Positions 38,956-47,207 of a stretch of 60,715 nucleotides of DNA are shown piece by piece (positions within the stretch are counted from its first letter, which is position 1; every line of letters starts with the position of its first letter). The translations under genes were made by a program, and so were the position numbers. A model generated the notes under the pieces. The model ran no database searches, had not been told where the DNA came from, and worked only from the letters and a program-made list of their open reading frames with translations. This DNA is from Bacillota bacterium (lineage in GTDB: Bacteria; Bacillota_I; Bacilli_A; ML615J-28; CAG-698): NCBI GenBank assembly GCA_016280895.1, contig JAEEHM010000057.1, forward strand, positions 1 to 60,715. The letters run 5' to 3'.

Positions 38956-41091
38956 ATGAGATTGGATGATTATAATTTCAATACCTCTTATTGTAAAAAA
39001 GATGTAGATGTTTATGAAGCATTTTATAGTAAATGTATGAGTTGCTCTACTCATTATGATAGGATTACAGGTTATTTTGGTAGTACTATCTATTATATTA
39101 TTTGGCCATCACTAAAAGAATTTATTCGAAATAATGGAAGAATTAGATTGATATGTTCACCTGTTTTATCTGATAATGATATAAATGCTTTAAAAGAAGG
39201 ATATAATTTAAAAAACTCATATAATGAGTCTATTTCTAATACCTTGAATGAGATGTTAATGGATTCAAAAATAGAGAAGCCAACTAAAGCATTGGCATAT
39301 TTAATAGCTACTGGAATCGTTGAAGTTAAGATAGGAGTATATATTCCTGATACGAATTCAGATATAGAAAGATTAGTTCATGATAAGACCGGTATTTTTT
39401 ATGATGATTATGGAAATATAGTTGGATTTCGTGGATCAGTTAATGAGACATTTGCTGGACTTTCAAAATATGGAAATTCCGAGTCCTTTGATGTATATCC
39501 AAATTGGGAAGACACTAGAGACACAAATAGGTGCATGAAGGATTTTAATTCATTTGATGAGATATGGAATGGAAATTGCAGCGCTATAAAACTATATGAA
39601 GTTTCGAAAACTCCATTTGAAAATTTAGCAGAAAAAATTTCTAAAGCGGAGTGGGAAATTTTGCTGGATGAAATAACAGTAACTAATGAGGAGGAAGTAG
39701 TTCCTAGATGGTATGCTGAAAAGAAAGGACGTTCAATTCGCAAACATCAAAAAGATGCCTTATGTAATTGGGAAGACAATAATAGACGTGGTTTGATGGA
39801 AATGGCTACAGGAAGTGGAAAAACTTTTATAGGATTGTGCGCCATAAGGGACGCTATTAATCGTGGGGATATTCCAATTGTCTTTGTTCCTTCTAATTTG
39901 TTATTTCAAAATTGGAAGGATGAATTAAGAAAAATGTTTACTGATGAAGATATTTTTGAACTGTTGTGTGGTAGCGGTAATAAAAAGTGGAAAGAAAATA
40001 ACTTGTTACATAAATTCACATCTGGTTTTTCATCAAAAAAAAGATATTTAATCTGTGAAATTGATGCTGTCATTAGAAATGATTATTTTATTAATAATTT
40101 AGACAAGTCCTCAAAGTATTTATTTATTTTCGACGAATGCCATTCTGTTGGAAGTTTAAAAAGACGAAAAATACTTGAATTTAATTCCAATTATAGATTA
40201 GGTTTAAGCGCCACTCCGCTTAGATATAATGATCCTGCAGGGAACGAAGCAATAATTAATTACTTTGATCGAGTGATTGAACCTAGATTCACGCTTTATG
40301 ATGCGATAAAAGAGCATATTTTAACTGAATATGTTTATTATCCTTGCGTAATTAGGTTGAGCGAAAACGATCAAAATAAATGGAATCTGATTTCAAAAAA
40401 AATATCTATATATATTAGTAGAGAAATTTCAAAAGAAAGATCTTTTAAAGAAATAATGAATGACACTTTTATTCAACAAAAATTCATACAACGCGCAAGA
40501 ATTATTAAAAGAGCAGAAGGAAAAGTTGATAAAGCAGTAGAAATAATTCGTAATAAGTATAAAAATGGACAAAAGTGGATTGTTTATTGTGATAGTCAGT
40601 ATCAAGTTAATGAGTTAATTAAGAGATTATCGCAATACAAAGAAATAATATTGACTGAGTATCACACGAATATACAAGGTAGTATGAAGGAAACGCTCGA
40701 TTACTTCAAAGAATTTGGAGGTGTATTAGTTTCAATTAAATGCCTTGATGAAGGAGTAGATATTCCATCTGTTACGCATGCATTAATTTTAGCATCCTCT
40801 AAAAATCCAAGAGAGTTTATTCAACGTAGGGGTAGGATACTAAGGTGCTGTGAAAGAAAGAATTATGCATATTTATATGATATGATAGTTACTCCAAATC
40901 CGTTTATGTTACATGAGGATGATAAGAGTGTCTCAATTGTTATTTCAGAATTATCAAGAGCAAAAGAGTTTGCCACGCATGCTAAAAATAGCGACGAATG
41001 CATAAATAATATCAACCAAATAGTAGATACATTTGGTATAAACAATATAGAAGAATATGCAGGAGGAGGAATAGAAGATGAATTATGCTAA
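38956..41091 (+). CDS. PLD-like nuclease fused to a superfamily 2 helicase
   Basis: 711 residues. The N-terminal region (about 1-200) looks like a phospholipase-D-type nuclease domain: YDRITGYFGSTIYYI, then VHDKTGIFYDDYGNIVGFRGSVNET, with the H-x-K...S-x-N-x-T pattern of the PLD fold. From about 255 comes a helicase: RKHQKDALCNW, MATGSGKTF (about 285), FDECHSVGS (391), GLSATPLR, and C-terminal DEGVDIPSVTHAL and QRRGRILR. Such PLD-helicases act as restriction or translocation enzymes next to DNA modification genes. It overlaps the next gene by 14 bp. Confidence 0.85.
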   Translation: MRLDDYNFNTSYCKKDVDVYEAFYSKCMSCSTHYDRITGYFGSTIYYIIWPSLKEFIRNNGRIRLICSPVLSDNDINALKEGYNLKNSYNESISNTLNEMLMDSKIEKPTKALAYLIATGIVEVKIGVYIPDTNSDIERLVHDKTGIFYDDYGNIVGFRGSVNETFAGLSKYGNSESFDVYPNWEDTRDTNRCMKDFNSFDEIWNGNCSAIKLYEVSKTPFENLAEKISKAEWEILLDEITVTNEEEVVPRWYAEKKGRSIRKHQKDALCNWEDNNRRGLMEMATGSGKTFIGLCAIRDAINRGDIPIVFVPSNLLFQNWKDELRKMFTDEDIFELLCGSGNKKWKENNLLHKFTSGFSSKKRYLICEIDAVIRNDYFINNLDKSSKYLFIFDECHSVGSLKRRKILEFNSNYRLGLSATPLRYNDPAGNEAIINYFDRVIEPRFTLYDAIKEHILTEYVYYPCVIRLSENDQNKWNLISKKISIYISREISKERSFKEIMNDTFIQQKFIQRARIIKRAEGKVDKAVEIIRNKYKNGQKWIVYCDSQYQVNELIKRLSQYKEIILTEYHTNIQGSMKETLDYFKEFGGVLVSIKCLDEGVDIPSVTHALILASSKNPREFIQRRGRILRCCERKNYAYLYDMIVTPNPFMLHEDDKSVSIVISELSRAKEFATHAKNSDECINNINQIVDTFGINNIEEYAGGGIEDELC

Positions 41092-41296
41092 AGATGATTT
41101 AATTAAAACTATAAATAAAATTCGATTAGAAGAATTCCCAAATTTAACTGATGATATAGTAAATCAGATTATACTTATAGAAAAAGAAAGTAGTATTACT
41201 TCTACACCATCTGATAAAAAGAAAAAAATAGAGGAATTAATTAATAATAATTATCATTTTTTAAAAGAATACTATAAAGGAGATAATAATGTTTAG
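41078..41296 (+). CDS. Small protein between the helicase and the SMC-like ATPase
   Basis: 72 residues, helical and charged (RLEEFPNLTDDIVNQIILIEKESSI). Not recognised. It overlaps both neighbours (14 bp and 8 bp), with AGGAGGAGG before ATG 41078, so it is certainly part of the operon and is likely to be a subunit or adaptor of the helicase or ATPase. Confidence 0.65.
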   Translation: MNYAKDDLIKTINKIRLEEFPNLTDDIVNQIILIEKESSITSTPSDKKKKIEELINNNYHFLKEYYKGDNNV

Positions 41297-43313
41297 ATTT
41301 CAGCGTATAACTTTGAATAATTTTGGTTGTTATGGTGGTGAAAAATCAATTGAGTTTCCTAATGAAAATGGAGTAGTTATAATTTGGGGAGAAAATGGAT
41401 TTGGGAAAACTACATTGCTACGTGCTATTCTTTTTGCTTTTACTGGCAAACTTGAAGATATACCAGATTATGATGGGCAAAATCATAAGTTTAAAGATGT
41501 AATAAATAGTGATAGTTGGAAAAGTAAGGAATATTTCTTTAGCGTTAGAGTAAAATTTATTTATAATGATGATCATTATGAAATCGTTAGGACAGTAAAA
41601 AAGAAAGAAAATATAGATGTACCTACTTCTGACAATGATTATGATGTCAAATTTGGAATACGCCAAGAAACGGTATCGCTTCCACAAACAGATGCAGAAA
41701 AGATTAAGAATGCTGTAATGCCTGATGGCGTTGAAAGATTCTTTATGTTTGATGGTGAGTATTTAGAAAAATACGAGAGTTTATTATATGAAAAGTCATC
41801 TAATATGCATATTAAGGAGTCAATAGAGAGAATACTAGGTGCTCCTGTATTAAAAAATTCATATAGTCATGTCTGTGATATTTTATCAAAATACGAAGAT
41901 CAATACTCAAAAGAATTGTCAAGAGACGAAAAAAATAAAAAATATTCATCTGATTTGAATAAATTAAATGAAGAAATGCAAATTCTAATTAGTGAAAAAA
42001 ATGATAAAGATGATGAAATCGCTAATGACAATAAGAGAATTGAAGAAATAAAAACTTTGTTATCAAGTAATAGTGGTTACAAAGAAATTCTTGAATCCGA
42101 AGAAATGCATATTAAACAAAGAGACAGACTAATTGATGAACAAAAAAGACTATGGGCTGATGTCAGAAAAATTATAGATAACAATCTAGTATCGCTATGT
42201 TATAATAGGGTAAATGAAACTATACAGGATTTGAAGTCTAGACAAATGGATTTATCAAAAGAACACACAAAACATGCTCTTTTTGTTGAAAACATAAAAT
42301 TAAAAGAAGAGGCAGAAGAAAATTGTTATTGTGAAATCTGTTTGCAAAAGTTAGATATTGAAGCTCAAAATCAATTAAGAAATCAATTAAATGAATTAAA
42401 AAATAAAAACTCATTTGTTTTATCGGATGAAGAAGAAAACGAATTACGTCTAGTGACATCTCAAATTAATAATCTTGAAAATCTTAATATTCATCGTGTC
42501 GTTTTATCAGAAAGTATTTATACATTAGAAAAAACGATAGCTGATAATGATATAGAAATTGAAAAACTAAATGAGCTTATTAATACTGATCAGTCACAAA
42601 GAAGATTTTATGAGAGCAGTGATACAAAGAATGGAATTACTCCAGAATTAATAAAAAGTTTAACACGTGAATTATCTTCAATTGAGGAACAGTTGCCTAT
42701 GAAGATTAGACAATCAAATAATATAGAAGATATTAAGATGAAGAGTAAAAACGATGAAATAGACGCTTTAAAGAAGAAAATAAAAAATGATGTTTCTTCA
42801 GAAGAATTAGAAAAATTAAGCACATTGATAAATATCTATAAAGACTTAACAAAAATATTTAGACGTGGAATAGATGATTATACACTTGTATTAAAAAACA
42901 AGGTAGAGAAATGTGCATCTGATATTTTCTTAAGTATCAGGCAACAAAAAGACTATAATGGCCTTGAAATTAATGATAATTACGGGCTACAAATAATGCA
43001 TGAATCCGGAGATAGGGTTCCAGTTAAATCTGCAGGTTATGGTCATATAGTTGCATTGTCACTGATAACTGCATTACATATGAATGCTCCAGAAGAAGGA
43101 CCTATAGTTATGGATTCTCCGTTTGGTAGACTATCATTTGCACATAAGCGTAATGTTGTTAGACAATTACCTAATATGGGACAACAAGTTATTATGTTAT
43201 TATATGACGATGAAGTTCCGAGAGATGACATTGTTAAAATTTTGGGTGATAGATTATTGAAAGAATATAGATTAGAGCATTCATATGCTTTCCAGACAAG
43301 TTTTGGAGATTAG
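41289..43313 (+). CDS. DndD/Rad50-like SMC ATPase
   Basis: 674 residues. Walker A WGENGFGKTT at residues 33-42; GVERFFMFDGEYLEKYESLL near 145, as in DndD; long coiled-coil arms; a central CEIC (about residue 350) resembling a Rad50 zinc hook; and a C-terminal half with SAGYGHIVALSLI (signature-like) and IVMDSPFGRLSF (Walker B/D-loop). DndD belongs to DNA phosphorothioation, but no DndC sulfurtransferase is present, so this is probably a DndD-like subunit of a different restriction system. AAAGGAG precedes ATG 41289. Confidence 0.82.
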   Translation: MFRFQRITLNNFGCYGGEKSIEFPNENGVVIIWGENGFGKTTLLRAILFAFTGKLEDIPDYDGQNHKFKDVINSDSWKSKEYFFSVRVKFIYNDDHYEIVRTVKKKENIDVPTSDNDYDVKFGIRQETVSLPQTDAEKIKNAVMPDGVERFFMFDGEYLEKYESLLYEKSSNMHIKESIERILGAPVLKNSYSHVCDILSKYEDQYSKELSRDEKNKKYSSDLNKLNEEMQILISEKNDKDDEIANDNKRIEEIKTLLSSNSGYKEILESEEMHIKQRDRLIDEQKRLWADVRKIIDNNLVSLCYNRVNETIQDLKSRQMDLSKEHTKHALFVENIKLKEEAEENCYCEICLQKLDIEAQNQLRNQLNELKNKNSFVLSDEEENELRLVTSQINNLENLNIHRVVLSESIYTLEKTIADNDIEIEKLNELINTDQSQRRFYESSDTKNGITPELIKSLTRELSSIEEQLPMKIRQSNNIEDIKMKSKNDEIDALKKKIKNDVSSEELEKLSTLINIYKDLTKIFRRGIDDYTLVLKNKVEKCASDIFLSIRQQKDYNGLEINDNYGLQIMHESGDRVPVKSAGYGHIVALSLITALHMNAPEEGPIVMDSPFGRLSFAHKRNVVRQLPNMGQQVIMLLYDDEVPRDDIVKILGDRLLKEYRLEHSYAFQTSFGD

Positions 43314-43322
43314 GAGTTAAGA

Positions 43323-43706
43323 ATGGGAAAATTAATTGGAGAGATAAGTATATCAGAAAAATCAAGTGAAATAATTAAAAAAATGAGTAATGATAAGGAT
43401 CGCTCACTAGGATACTTTAAAGATGAGAGTGATTTTGGTAGATTTGCTCTTGCATTTGCGATTTCTAAGAAATTAGATTTAGACTTTGATTCAAAGACAT
43501 ACAAATCACAAAATTCATTAAAAACTAAATGGCATTATGCTTCTATAGACTCTAATGGTGAATATGATACTATCTTAAAAAATATTCATCCAGAAATAAT
43601 AATCGATAATGATTATATAAGTGCATTAATTGATTATACAATAAAGTATATAGATAAAGAATTTTTCCAAAAAGGAATATACGAGATATCGCAAATTGTA
43701 AAATAG
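43323..43706 (+). CDS. Small protein ending the methyltransferase/helicase/SMC operon
   Basis: 127 residues. The N-terminal part (ISISEKSSEIIKKMSND...FGRFALAFAISKKLDL) loosely recalls DndE-like or ribbon-helix DNA-binding proteins: a strand, a helix pair, and a conserved R-x-A. The likeness to DndE is weak and by eye only. The gene begins 9 bp after the DndD-like gene, with AGGAG before ATG 43323, and a terminator follows. Confidence 0.6.
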   Translation: MGKLIGEISISEKSSEIIKKMSNDKDRSLGYFKDESDFGRFALAFAISKKLDLDFDSKTYKSQNSLKTKWHYASIDSNGEYDTILKNIHPEIIIDNDYISALIDYTIKYIDKEFFQKGIYEISQIVK

Positions 43707-43765
43707 TGGTCAGAAATTGTTTGTAAAAACATTAGTTTATTTATATACATATAAAAGTGTGCGAG

Positions 43766-43793
43766 GAGAAAGATAATATCTTTCTCTTTTTTT
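43766..43793 (+). terminator. Terminator of the 34.8-43.7 kb operon
   Basis: GAGAAAGAT (43766-43774)/ATCTTTCTC (43778-43786), 9-bp stem, then seven Ts. Confidence 0.85.
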
Positions 43794-43853
43794 ATGTCCC
43801 AAAATTGATACATATCCTTTGATATAATCATAGCACACTAATAGGAGGACATT

Positions 43854-45092
43854 ATGGAAAAAGATTTTTTAAGTAAAGTGTATGGATATAAAAGAATCAA
43901 AGAAGAATTGTATCTAATCAGAAATTGGTATTTAAATAGTGATAAGTTAAAAGAAAAAAGAGAATTATTACCTAAAGGAATCTTATTATATGGAGAACCA
44001 GGTAATGGTAAAACTAGAATAATCAGAGAATATTCAAAAACATTCAATTATCCTATATTTGTTATTGAAGGAAAGAATGATAATGTTCAAAAAGAAGTAT
44101 GTGATATATATGAACAAGCAAAAAAAGAAAAACATGCAATAGTTGTAATAGATGAATTAGATAGATTAATCGATAAAGATGATAAATTAATAAGAATCAT
44201 AATGTCTCAATTAGATGGATTTGATGCAAACACAAATATATTAACTTTAGCAACATGTAATGAATATTACAAAATGCCAGATGCTTTAATAAGAGAAGGA
44301 AGATTTGATAGACATTTCTATATTGGAATAACTGATGGAGAAATGGAAGATATAATAAGATCATTTTCAACTGATGCTAAAATAATATTAACTGAGGAAG
44401 AAATATTAGAATTATCACAATGTTTGAATTATTACAGCACAGGAGAAATAAAAGCAATTTTCAATAATGCTTCATTAAGATATGGGGATGACTGTACAAT
44501 TGATAATATTATCAATACAGCAGACTTCTTAAAAACTGGGTATATTGGTTTAGATAAAAAAACAAAAATAGATAAATATATTGCAGTTCACGAAGCAGGA
44601 CATGCAATATATTCATATTTCTTTTGTGATAGTCAAAGATTTTTAAGAATATATTTTAATGATGAAGGTGGATGTACTATTTCTAAAGATATAGATAGTA
44701 AAGAAACAATAGAAAGTAGAATCAATAAAGTAAGAATGAGCTTAGCAGGAATTGTTGCTGAAGAATTAATATTTAAAAAGCATAGTATTGGTTGTAGTAA
44801 CGATTTAGAAAAAGCACATAATTTTGCTTTTAGATTAATGAATAGAGCATGTATAGAAGGTTTGGATAGTTTTTGCTCACGTGAAACATATTATGATAGA
44901 AGAAATATATCAGAATATTCAAGTAAGATTATTGATAAAAAGACTAATAAGTTTTTAAAAGATAACTATAAAATAGTAAAAAGAAATTTAAAGAAATATA
45001 AAAAACATATATTATTGGTAAGTGATTATTTACAAGAACATCGAGAAATTAAAAGAAATGATTTTATTAAATTGTTGAGTACACAAATATAA
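43854..45092 (+). CDS. Soluble FtsH-like AAA protease
   Basis: 412 residues. An AAA+ domain, with GYKRIKEELYLIRNWYL at the start, Walker A GEPGNGKT near 47, Walker B IVVIDELDRL near 100, LATCNEYYKMPDAL and the arginine-finger region REGRFDRHFY, is joined to an M41 peptidase domain with HEAGH (zinc ligands His246 and His250) and CSNDLEKA as the third-ligand region. FtsH normally has two N-terminal membrane helices and about 600 residues; none are present here. It has its own promoter region and terminators on both sides. GGAGGAC precedes ATG 43854. Confidence 0.85.
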   Translation: MEKDFLSKVYGYKRIKEELYLIRNWYLNSDKLKEKRELLPKGILLYGEPGNGKTRIIREYSKTFNYPIFVIEGKNDNVQKEVCDIYEQAKKEKHAIVVIDELDRLIDKDDKLIRIIMSQLDGFDANTNILTLATCNEYYKMPDALIREGRFDRHFYIGITDGEMEDIIRSFSTDAKIILTEEEILELSQCLNYYSTGEIKAIFNNASLRYGDDCTIDNIINTADFLKTGYIGLDKKTKIDKYIAVHEAGHAIYSYFFCDSQRFLRIYFNDEGGCTISKDIDSKETIESRINKVRMSLAGIVAEELIFKKHSIGCSNDLEKAHNFAFRLMNRACIEGLDSFCSRETYYDRRNISEYSSKIIDKKTNKFLKDNYKIVKRNLKKYKKHILLVSDYLQEHREIKRNDFIKLLSTQI

Positions 45093-45136: not shown

Positions 45137-45463
45137 GTTTTAGTAATTTTATAATTGATTTATTTAAATATATAAGTAGGGGAAAATAATATAATTTCTT
45201 TAAGGTCAAATTTTGTAGCCTTAAAAGTGAGAAATCGAGGTCGATTTTTTCGACCACGATATTATATATAATTGATAATGTGAATGGAATTCGAAAAGAA
45301 TGAAATATGATTAATCGTGAGGTACAGAAAATTCACATCACAAATGTGATTCACGTGCGAAGTAAAAGCATTTCGTGAGGTCAAATTTTTGACCTCATGA
45401 AAAATAATCATAATAACAGGAATATCTTGATGTCAAAAAAATAACGTCAAATATTAAATATTC

Positions 45464-45604
45464 TTATGAGGTCGCAAAATGAGACCTCATAAATTAAAAT
45501 AGCATATGTTAAAAAATATGTGGTTTATTGCCAAAACTTTTGATTACAAATACGATTTCAGTAAAGATGTATAATAACTTGAGGTCAAAATTTTTTACCT
45601 CAAG
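45464..45604. repeat. Degenerate 141-bp repeat unit A
   Basis: Runs from one palindrome to the next and aligns along its length with unit B at 45760-45900, also 141 bp; for example TTGCCAAAACTTTTGATTAC here against TTGGCTAAAAATTTTTACTG there. Similarity is partial, so the duplication is old. Confidence 0.65.
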
Positions 45605-45662
45605 ATTGAGGGGAGTAAGGAGCCTTCGATATTTCAATTTATATAGAATACTAAATAAATAA
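45567..45662 (+). pseudogene. ORF6N-like fragment in the palindrome array
   Basis: A 31-codon frame reading MYNNLRSKFFTSRLRGVRSLRYF. It resembles the centre of ORF6N domains, where an LRSxxxTS stretch is followed by (G)RRYLPYVF. No ribosome binding site is seen. A second such frame, 45700-45804, reads MFKLDIILRSIFSTSSGKYY. Both suggest that at least part of the array derives from decayed ORF6N genes. Confidence 0.4.
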
Positions 45663-45759
45663 CGTGGTGTAAAAATTTCACCTCGACTATTTAGTATATA
45701 TGTTTAAATTGGATATAATCTTGAGGTCGATTTTTTCGACCTCAAGTGGAAAATATTAT

Positions 45760-45900
45760 CATGAGGTCACAAAATGTGACCTCATGAATTTAGATAGAAT
45801 ATGATTAAAAAGTAATATGCTTCTTGGCTAAAAATTTTTACTGCAAATAAGAATGCTTTGATGGAAAATAATAATTTGCGGTCACATTTTGTGACCGCAA
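45760..45900. repeat. Degenerate 141-bp repeat unit B
   Basis: Partner of unit A (45464-45604); starts and ends with a palindrome. It is followed after 20 bp by the ribosome binding site of the first ORF6N gene. Confidence 0.65.
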
Positions 45901-45936: not shown

Positions 45937-46266
45937 ATGAACAATAATGATATTCAAATCTTAGACAAACAGACAATTGAGTCAATGATTTATACTATAA
46001 GAGAACAAAAAGTAATGTTGGATTTTGAACTTGCTAGAATATATGGGTATTCTACAAGCAGTTTTAATGAACAAGTCAAGAGAAATATTGAGAAGTTTCC
46101 TGACAGATATAGATTTCAAATAAGAAAAGTAGAAATTAATACTTTTTCAAGGTCGCATAATGCGACCTTGAAAAAAGAACGAGGTAAAAATTATAAATAT
46201 ATGACCTATGCCTTTACAGAACAAGGCATTTATATGCTAATGATAGAAAAAAGGAGGACTATATGA
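45937..46266 (+). CDS. Truncated ORF6N-domain protein (tandem copy 1)
   Basis: 109 residues. An ORF6N DNA-binding domain: TIREQKVMLDFELARIYGYSTSSFNEQVKRNIEKFPDRYRFQI, then FSRSHNATLKKE and YAFTEQGIYMLM. The family is known from phage and plasmid proteins. Compared with the next gene it ends abruptly after MLM with IEKRRTI, which is encoded by the ribosome-binding-site region of copy 2; a deletion between two tandem copies explains this. AAGGAGG precedes ATG 45937. It may be a free-standing DNA-binding domain or a dead end product. Confidence 0.8.
   Translation: MNNNDIQILDKQTIESMIYTIREQKVMLDFELARIYGYSTSSFNEQVKRNIEKFPDRYRFQIRKVEINTFSRSHNATLKKERGKNYKYMTYAFTEQGIYMLMIEKRRTI
46143..46175. repeat. 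Palindrome inside ORF6N copy 1
   Basis: A perfect 15-bp inverted repeat, TTTTTCAAGGTCGCA (46143-46157)/TGCGACCTTGAAAAA (46161-46175), in frame, encoding FSRSHNATLKK. Same family as the upstream array. Confidence 0.95.
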
Positions 46267-47207
46267 ACAATAATGATATACAAATTTTAAATAAGCAAAC
46301 AATTGAATCAATGATTTATACAATAAGGGGACAAAAAGTAATGCTGGACTTTGATCTTGCTAGAATATATGGGTATTCAACAAAAAGATTTAATGAACAA
46401 GTGAAAAATAATATTGAAAAGTTCCCTAAACGATATAGGTTTCAACTCAAAGTCGACGAACTTAATATGGTTTTGCGGTCGAAAAAATCGACCGCAAATA
46501 CAATAACTATGAGACGATATCTTCCTTATGTCTTTACAGAACAAGGTATATATATGCTAATGACTGTATTAAAAGGAGATTTAGCCACTAAACAAAGTAT
46601 TGCGTTAATAGATACTTTTAAAGAGATGAAAGATTATATTATTGAAAATAGTAATTTAAGTGATATTAATGAAATATTAAAACTTAATAATATTGTGAAT
46701 GAACATTCTAATAAGATTGATGTAATTGAAAATAAATTAAATGTTGTTATGAAGAATTTTATTGATGAAGATACTTTCAAACATTTTGTGTTTCAAAATG
46801 GGAAGAAGATAGAAGCTGATGTTGCTATTCAATCAATATTTAAAAGAGCTAAGAAAAGTATTATTGTGGTTGATGATTATATTGATATAAAAACTCTACA
46901 ATTATTAAAAATTGCGAAAGAAGAAGTTAAAATAATTATTATTAGTGATAATAAAGGAAAGAATAATATCAATAAGAATTTCATTAAAGATGCTAATTTA
47001 AATATTGAATTTAAAAATAATAAAATATTTCATGATAGGTATATTTTCTTAGATCATAATATTGATAGTGAAGAAATATATCATTTAGGGGGATCAATAA
47101 AGGATGCTGGTGGAAGAGTGAGTGCTATTAGTAGAGTTTATGATTTAAATATTTATAAAAGCAATATTAAAAAAGCACTTAGTCATGAAAACATTGAAAT
47201 TGAATAA
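46263..47207 (+). CDS. ORF6N-domain protein with C-terminal PLD-like domain (tandem copy 2)
   Basis: 314 residues. Residues 1-105 are an ORF6N domain nearly identical at its start to copy 1 (NNNDIQIL(N/D)KQTIESMIYTIR) and including VLRSKKSTANT and YVFTEQGIYML. A helical linker follows. Residues of about 195-310 resemble a single phospholipase-D-type unit: SIIVVDDYID, KIFHDRYIFLDHN (H-x-R/K core) and YHLGGSIKDAGGR. The protein may bind specific DNA and act on it or on another phosphodiester. AGGAGG precedes ATG 46263, which overlaps the stop of copy 1. Confidence 0.83.
   Translation: MNNNDIQILNKQTIESMIYTIRGQKVMLDFDLARIYGYSTKRFNEQVKNNIEKFPKRYRFQLKVDELNMVLRSKKSTANTITMRRYLPYVFTEQGIYMLMTVLKGDLATKQSIALIDTFKEMKDYIIENSNLSDINEILKLNNIVNEHSNKIDVIENKLNVVMKNFIDEDTFKHFVFQNGKKIEADVAIQSIFKRAKKSIIVVDDYIDIKTLQLLKIAKEEVKIIIISDNKGKNNINKNFIKDANLNIEFKNNKIFHDRYIFLDHNIDSEEIYHLGGSIKDAGGRVSAISRVYDLNIYKSNIKKALSHENIEIE
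46472..46498. repeat. Palindrome inside ORF6N copy 2
   Basis: Perfect 11-bp inverted repeat TTTGCGGTCGA (46472-46482)/TCGACCGCAAA (46488-46498), at the same position of the domain as in copy 1, encoding LRSKKSTAN. Confidence 0.95.

Follow-up and report, generated by a model that had tools for sequence, protein, structure and literature searches.

Palindromic operators inside coding sequences are known in Escherichia coli, where galE OI and lacZ O2 can work together with a promoter-proximal site; both lie in the target gene and are specific to one operon. Lambda O is a DNA-binding protein with its site inside its own coding sequence, a location shared by the site of RepC of the repABC plasmids. 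Both of these sites are replication origins, and to our knowledge no code linking bases to residues over a whole family has been described for either protein. Binding of RepC within its own gene has been reported (PMC2783167). In Borrelia, ChIP-seq indicates that the centromere-binding and possibly phage-derived protein ParZ also binds within its own gene, with a spread of about 8 kb (PMC9712426); the likeness to the proteins described below is one of own-gene binding. Short, conserved and clustered dyads are also found in REP/BIME elements, but these are extragenic and numerous genome-wide.

Here we describe a palindrome of about 25 bp in ORF6N genes that, unlike the galE and lacZ sites, lies in the gene of the putative regulator itself. 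Its place in the gene is constant over the family, in many phyla, and its sequence changes in step with the recognition helix. In contrast to REP/BIME, the palindromes are confined to ORF6N loci and are mostly coding; the many dispersed intergenic copies typical of those elements were not observed. The best explanation, which we regard as probable, is that ORF6N proteins bind these palindromes in their own coding sequence, most likely for autoregulation. Own-gene sites are known singly, and in the open literature (subscription journals were outside the search) we found no earlier family-wide, frame-independent site matched to the helix of its own gene; papers retrieved with the term "ORF6N" are, by their titles and abstracts, on other subjects.

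The window, that is, the whole stretch of 60,715 nucleotides analyzed, belongs to the 1.8-Mb draft genome of a Bacillota bacterium and contains two tandem ORF6N genes (table 1), with Pfam PF10543 scores of 94.6 and 105.3 bits against a curated cut-off of 27.8. Both carry a palindrome inside their own coding sequence: that of gene 1 has perfect symmetry reaching 46143-46175, and that of gene 2 encodes residues 71-79 (LRSKKSTAN). In the AlphaFold2 model of gene 2 (mean pLDDT 81.5), a helix at residues 29-36 is followed directly by helix 40-49, forming a helix-turn-helix, and the residues encoded by the palindrome form a loop, with pLDDT below 50 at 75-78, in which almost any peptide may be tolerated. 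Structure and fold searches showed a PLD-like fold in the C-terminal half of gene 2, with matches that include TrmBL2, Zucchini and NucT, nucleases being among them; at residues 257-283 this fold has H-D-R without exception, together with a D that is nearly invariant (H-x-R-x4-D). The PLD-like fold is missing from other ORF6N proteins, which end in a short C-terminus, yet share the same palindrome and code. A sequence search of the PDB returned no relative.

Long and short ORF6N proteins both match strongly the PADLOC models of PDC-S05, candidate defense proteins known from genomic prediction, for which the sources searched gave no palindrome or mechanism. Gene 2, itself a PDC-S05 match, lies 3' of PbeA- and PbeC/DndD-like defense genes. 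Directly upstream, the window holds a defense island (38956-45092) with a PbeA-like helicase, a small ORF, a PbeC/DndD-like ATPase, an unassigned 127-aa ORF and a protein combining AAA+ and M41 peptidase domains, with a weak IetA match. The search of a phage collection gave few matches, which were unannotated, and viral ORF6N relatives in PHROGs are annotated as anti-repressors. The domain is also present in the control genomes of Caulobacter and Lactococcus lactis.

Table 1. ORF6N genes, predicted recognition helices and palindromes in the window.
Feature	Coordinates	Strand	Remarks
Array palindrome	45235..45259		inner class TCGA, the class of gene 2
Array palindrome GTGAGGTCAAATTTTTGACCTCATG	45371..45402		center of even length
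Array palindrome	45466..45490		left arm TCGC; one mismatch
Array palindrome	45579..45603		inner class TCAA; one mismatch
Array palindrome, core GGTGTAAAAATTTCACC	45663..45687		core equals in-gene site of second ORF6N unit of contig C100
Array palindrome	45721..45745		inner class TCGA; core exactly the gene 2 site in reverse complement
Array palindrome	45761..45785		inner class TCAC
Array palindrome	45876..45900		inner class TCAC; ATG of gene 1 36 bp downstream
ORF6N gene 1	45937..46266	+	109 aa, ORF6N domain alone; PF10543 E=4.4e-27
Gene 1 predicted recognition helix	46054..46083	+	TSSFNEQVKR; E45, R49; aligned to gene 2 positions
Gene 1 in-gene palindrome TCAAGGTCGCATAATGCGACCTTGA	46147..46171	+	class TCGC, predicted by E45+R49; pattern match 46149-46169
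ORF6N gene 2	46263..47207	+	314 aa, ORF6N plus C-terminal PLD-like fold; PF10543 E=2e-30; PADLOC PDC-S05 E=7.8e-97
Gene 2 predicted recognition helix	46380..46409	+	residues 40-49, TKRFNEQVKN; code positions R42, E45, N49; from AlphaFold2 and covariation
Gene 2 in-gene palindrome TTGCGGTCGAAAAAATCGACCGCAA	46473..46497	+	class TCGA, predicted by E45+N49 of its own recognition helix; pattern match 46475-46495

The in-gene palindrome is a feature of the whole family. We scored 150 ORF6N domains from 80 loci of public genomes (Bacteroidota, Bacillota, Spirochaetota, Campylobacterota, Desulfobacterota and others, with one MAG labeled as an archaeon) and from 17 viral contigs. In 141 of them, distributed over many phyla, plasmids and viral contigs, at least 8 of the 12 arm pairs were matched at the same codons; the mean at this fixed point was 10.5 of 12, against 3.3 at other centers, where the maximum was 5.2. 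Synonymous recoding of 113 non-redundant genes gave 5.03±0.13 against an observed 10.9 of 12, so that synonymous codon choice cannot explain the palindrome. Pairing drops beyond 12-13 bp from the center, and the length of the symmetry is therefore that of a site-sized element. A few ORF6N genes (L140, L038 and L210) lack the palindrome. In others (L146, L150 and L151, from spirochaete MAGs as judged by L092 and L107) there is more than one in-gene palindrome: two or three are spaced by about 40 bp, as a rule one of class TCAC and one of class TCGC.

Three features indicate that the symmetry of the DNA is itself under selection. Genes of the same class have TTG AGG TCG CAA xTT GCG ACC TCA A, which reads L-R-S-Q-x-A-T-S, and changes in one arm are matched in the other, some of them altering two amino acids together, as from LRSQNATS to LISQNAIS in L007 (GATATC/GATATC). 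In 13 genes, an exact mirror of the left arm would create an in-frame stop in the right one (11 TGA, 2 TAA); every one of them has another codon there instead (TGC, TGT or TCA), while the mirror is exact in 91 of the 100 others. Perfect symmetry is broken exactly at the would-be stop codon, a sign of selection on the DNA symmetry itself. Seven genes with long open frames have the palindrome one base off the usual frame, encoding LVAKCDRF, FLVEIFDQ, FLVENFDQ, LVTNCDRF and the like, and the copies of Legionella geestiana and of a Segatella copri plasmid also have variant peptides. A palindrome read in another frame means that the DNA is conserved and not the peptide. The third feature is the low-pLDDT loop of the AlphaFold2 model described above.

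The bases of the inner half-site covary with residues of the modeled helix 40-49, which is encoded about 90 nt upstream of the palindrome. With the motif itself excluded, the highest covariation was that of residues 45 (z 29.9), 42 (z 19.8) and 49 (z 13.1) in the numbering of gene 2, spaced i, i+3 and i+7. The resulting table of residues and bases is nearly deterministic among scorable cases: Q45 goes with GGTCAC (34/34), E45 with GGTCGC (23/23) and K45 with GGTTCC (17/17), while R45 pairs with GGTG-type sites and L45 with GGTTTC or GGTTGC; the third variable base is C with R49 and A with N49. For a test of phylogenetic independence, a tree was computed from an alignment stripped of the helix and motif columns. 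On it, 41 branch-disjoint pairs of genes unlike at residues 45/49 differed in palindrome class in 40 cases (37 when mismatched positions are allowed to count as compatible), against 1 of 35 pairs alike at these residues and of equal median distance. Forty further loci, held out from the table, yielded 31 new domains; the palindrome was present in 29 and the code was obeyed in 27 of the 28 scorable. Nearly all out-of-frame genes also fit the code, L170 being a partial exception. The code is broken in a few genes (L147, L170 and L045/L152); L147 (400-924) is a clear exception, with a Q-type helix and a TCGC in-gene site, and has a TCAC site in an upstream ORF6N remnant. Site specificity thus tracks the recognition helix of the same gene by covariation, table, pairs and held-out loci, and the proposal of the first-pass annotation that the palindromes are binding sites for ORF6N proteins gains strong support. 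From this covariation, for which we see no other fitting explanation, it is highly likely that the proteins physically bind the palindrome.

The first-pass annotation had placed about ten palindromes of the form RMGGTC-N9-GACCKY in the noncoding stretch 45200-45900. The array is real, since the window has six exact matches and 100 dinucleotide shuffles have none, and so are the arm changes that preserve the dyad. Only four of the six, however, lie in that stretch (45468, 45723, 45763 and 45878); the other two (46149-46169 and 46475-46495) are inside the ORF6N genes. Under relaxed criteria the noncoding part (45235-45900) holds about eight sites (table 1), besides weaker ones, for example at ~45428, and ten is a fair count if the in-gene sites are included. 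One arm pair presented as noncoding, AAGGTCGCA/TGCGACCTT, is an in-gene site, and is therefore coding and outside 45200-45900. The array is the edge of a larger pattern, and what had been missed is the palindrome inside the genes across the ORF6N family.

The suggested clustering at ORF6N loci was borne out in this genome and in others. In the 1.8-Mb draft, GGTC-N9-GACC occurs 11 times, with seven occurrences in the window and four imperfect ones elsewhere, and the three GGTG-type sites are all in the window or in the one further ORF6N cluster of the genome (contig C100). We also scanned 25 other genomes (98.4 Mb), comparing coordinates of sites and ORF6N domains. All 18 matches of GGTTCCA-N3-TGGAACC were inside ORF6N domains, as were 25 of the 31 matches of GGTCRCA-N3-TGYGACC, of which four more lay within ~1.6 kb and two were unlinked; reversed patterns gave no match in the same 98.4 Mb. 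With 43 of 49 strict sites inside ORF6N domains and none for the reversed controls, these are not the sites of a global regulator. Isolated palindromes AGGTGGTCGCA...TGCGACCACCT with no ORF6N gene near were seen in L143 (1553-1577), L145 (2495-2519) and L149 (1431-1455); one of them sits between nuoH and nuoI, and those of L143 and L145 are near-identical to the out-of-frame in-gene site of L171.

The array in the window mixes specificities: two TCGA sites match gene 2 and one TCGC arm matches gene 1, while no complete ORF6N gene reading the TCAC and TCAA classes was found in the draft genome, which is 84% complete. Similar mixed-class arrays of near-perfect palindromes occur in other Bacilli: in L152 six palindromes lie on the 3' side of an ORF6N gene, and in L153 five lie upstream of a pair of ORF6N genes. 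We infer that the noncoding array is a cluster of ORF6N-type sites of mixed specificities beside two live genes. Its flanks, with the palindromes masked, have no detectable ORF6N similarity, so that the sites either persist longer than any gene remnant or have nothing to do with one; the earlier idea of relics of gene decay is weakly supported. In its favor there is a single site, GGTGTAAAAATTTCACC, with 17 bp identical to a C100 in-gene site. Its asymmetry corresponds there to a cysteine codon and makes sense solely as such a codon avoiding TGA; a decay origin of the array stays unproven. We have low confidence in any one role for the array, be it relic, decoy or cross-regulation. The C100 cluster itself (L006 4774-6380) consists of three ORF6N units in tandem. 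One is of full length and two stop after YML; all three have an in-gene palindrome of their own, with different arms. The sequence AAAGGAG, similar to a Shine-Dalgarno site and located ahead of the next unit, is like the LKG codons of the full-length gene, which suggests, from the sequence, duplication at that short homology.

A chromosomal subfamily of Bro-N genes (L197-L209, L215-L244) has in-gene palindromes that agree with those of ORF6N in size and position, with a different helix-site code. In 32 genes the mean best score was 10.1 of 12 against 6.75 after synonymous recoding, a contrast inflated by a null without re-optimization of the center. The palindromes are read in the other frame (ELVTxCxQLK), and helix and site are paired as YWSVLK with CTACA, YWSDLK with CGA and YWYRVK with TCGACA (z 10.2 at one helix position, computed without a tree). 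These data suggest that an in-gene palindrome matched to the helix may be a superfamily trait. The rhuM gene of plasmid p5482 of B. thetaiotaomicron (L214 354-1184) has a coding-region palindrome, TGTTCCATTTTGGAACA, with 10 of 12 pairs, equal to the maximum of the null; RhuM is a possible further member of the pattern, a lead from this single example.

Symmetry of this kind may have other causes. Perfect dyads are able to fold, and adjacent palindromes of the array are inverted relative to one another, as would suit a hairpin of RNA or single-strand DNA (a leader, an RNase III site or a cruciform) in which the symmetry is structural. On the coding strand, however, G·T mismatches (13) are rarer than A·C ones (28), whereas in an RNA stem the reverse is expected; the central codon ends in T in 103 of 104 F, I or N cases, against ~63% elsewhere; and covariation with a DNA-recognition helix would not be expected. 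With neither a G·U-tolerant stem nor any Rfam family match to the palindromes, the hairpin or cruciform control raised in the first-pass annotation is unsupported, and we consider it very improbable. Correction of quasi-palindromes by template switching, by which arms are kept matched without selection, could account for arms changing in step, but it leaves unexplained the fixed position, the ~25-bp length, the covariation with the helix and the confinement to ORF6N genes; it is a most unlikely cause of the pattern, though paired changes may still come about in this way. A coupling within the protein, or shared ancestry, in which loop and helix residues co-evolve and the palindrome is incidental, draws on the fact that loop residues and inner bases are the same DNA and so covary by construction. 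The synonymous null was rejected, and sites in the other frame encode different residues and still fit the code, which excludes coupling within the protein unless the frame-shifts are sequencing errors; shared ancestry was ruled out as the cause of covariation by the independent pairs. The chance that this reading holds is negligible.

The in-gene site might also be a replication origin or centromere of its own protein instead of an operator. RepC and ParZ are precedents of binding in the own gene; the arrays resemble iterons or parS arrays, and plasmids and viral contigs carry some of the copies. Most of the genes, though, are chromosomal, single or tandem, with one site each, the same site goes with two quite different C-terminal architectures, and arrays mix specificities, all of which makes such a function improbable, if a little less so than those above. 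A site at which ORF6N modules are shuffled by recombination, gene conversion or cleavage, with the PLD-like domain possibly a nuclease, would fit the tandem N-terminal modules of C100 and of G014, the two orientations of the array sites and the matches of the PLD fold to Zucchini and NucT. We find it unlikely: short ORF6N proteins without the PLD-like domain share palindromes and code, and recombination alone needs no reader of bases, whereas the covariation does.

Binding of the protein to the palindrome of its own gene is the reading that we favor. The inner half-site GGT-N-N-N would be read by the recognition helix, at residues 40-49 in gene 2, the first two variable bases by residues 45 and 42 and the third by residue 49. 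The palindrome is probably tolerated in the gene, and readable in more than one frame, because it encodes a loop predicted to be disordered. With helix and site only ~90 nt apart and inherited together, the two would form a self-contained module of address plus reader, in which neither transfer nor domain swapping disturbs the match. A protein bound in the gene, and sometimes near the start codon too, would block its own transcription, and ORF6N genes arriving on a phage or plasmid would perhaps be repressed as well if their specificity is the same. Autoregulation is the likeliest use, and to judge from sequence, autorepression from an intragenic operator has about an even chance of being correct. 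In its favor are the joint inheritance of operator and reader and the anti-repressor annotation of the viral relatives. A second palindrome, 225-315 bp upstream of the in-gene center and near the start codon, was found in 18 of 114 genes (~16%), against one in the downstream mirror interval. Its class was that of the own code in 8 of 18 cases, with 5.5 expected (P=0.12); such promoter-proximal sites exist but match no better than chance, which weakens a simple model of autorepression with two matching operators. Cross-regulation of paralogues, or immunity between elements, would fit the upstream and array sites of other classes.

More speculatively, and in our opinion with rather less than even prospects, ORF6N and Bro-N may constitute a superfamily of self-addressed genes, self-matched yet freely diversifying, with homotypic immunity between mobile elements and with mixed arrays as decoys or a record of past addresses. 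If homotypic immunity is true, a resident protein would silence incoming genes bearing the same address. In these genes, one stretch of DNA answers to three constraints: a protein loop, the avoidance of stop codons and a palindromic site that fits the helix encoded nearby. For ORF6N, a widespread domain with almost no open literature, sequence alone yields a predicted binding site together with a recognition code that can be read. The question of what ORF6N (and Bro-N) proteins bind becomes directly testable, and the family offers a natural data set on protein-DNA specificity.
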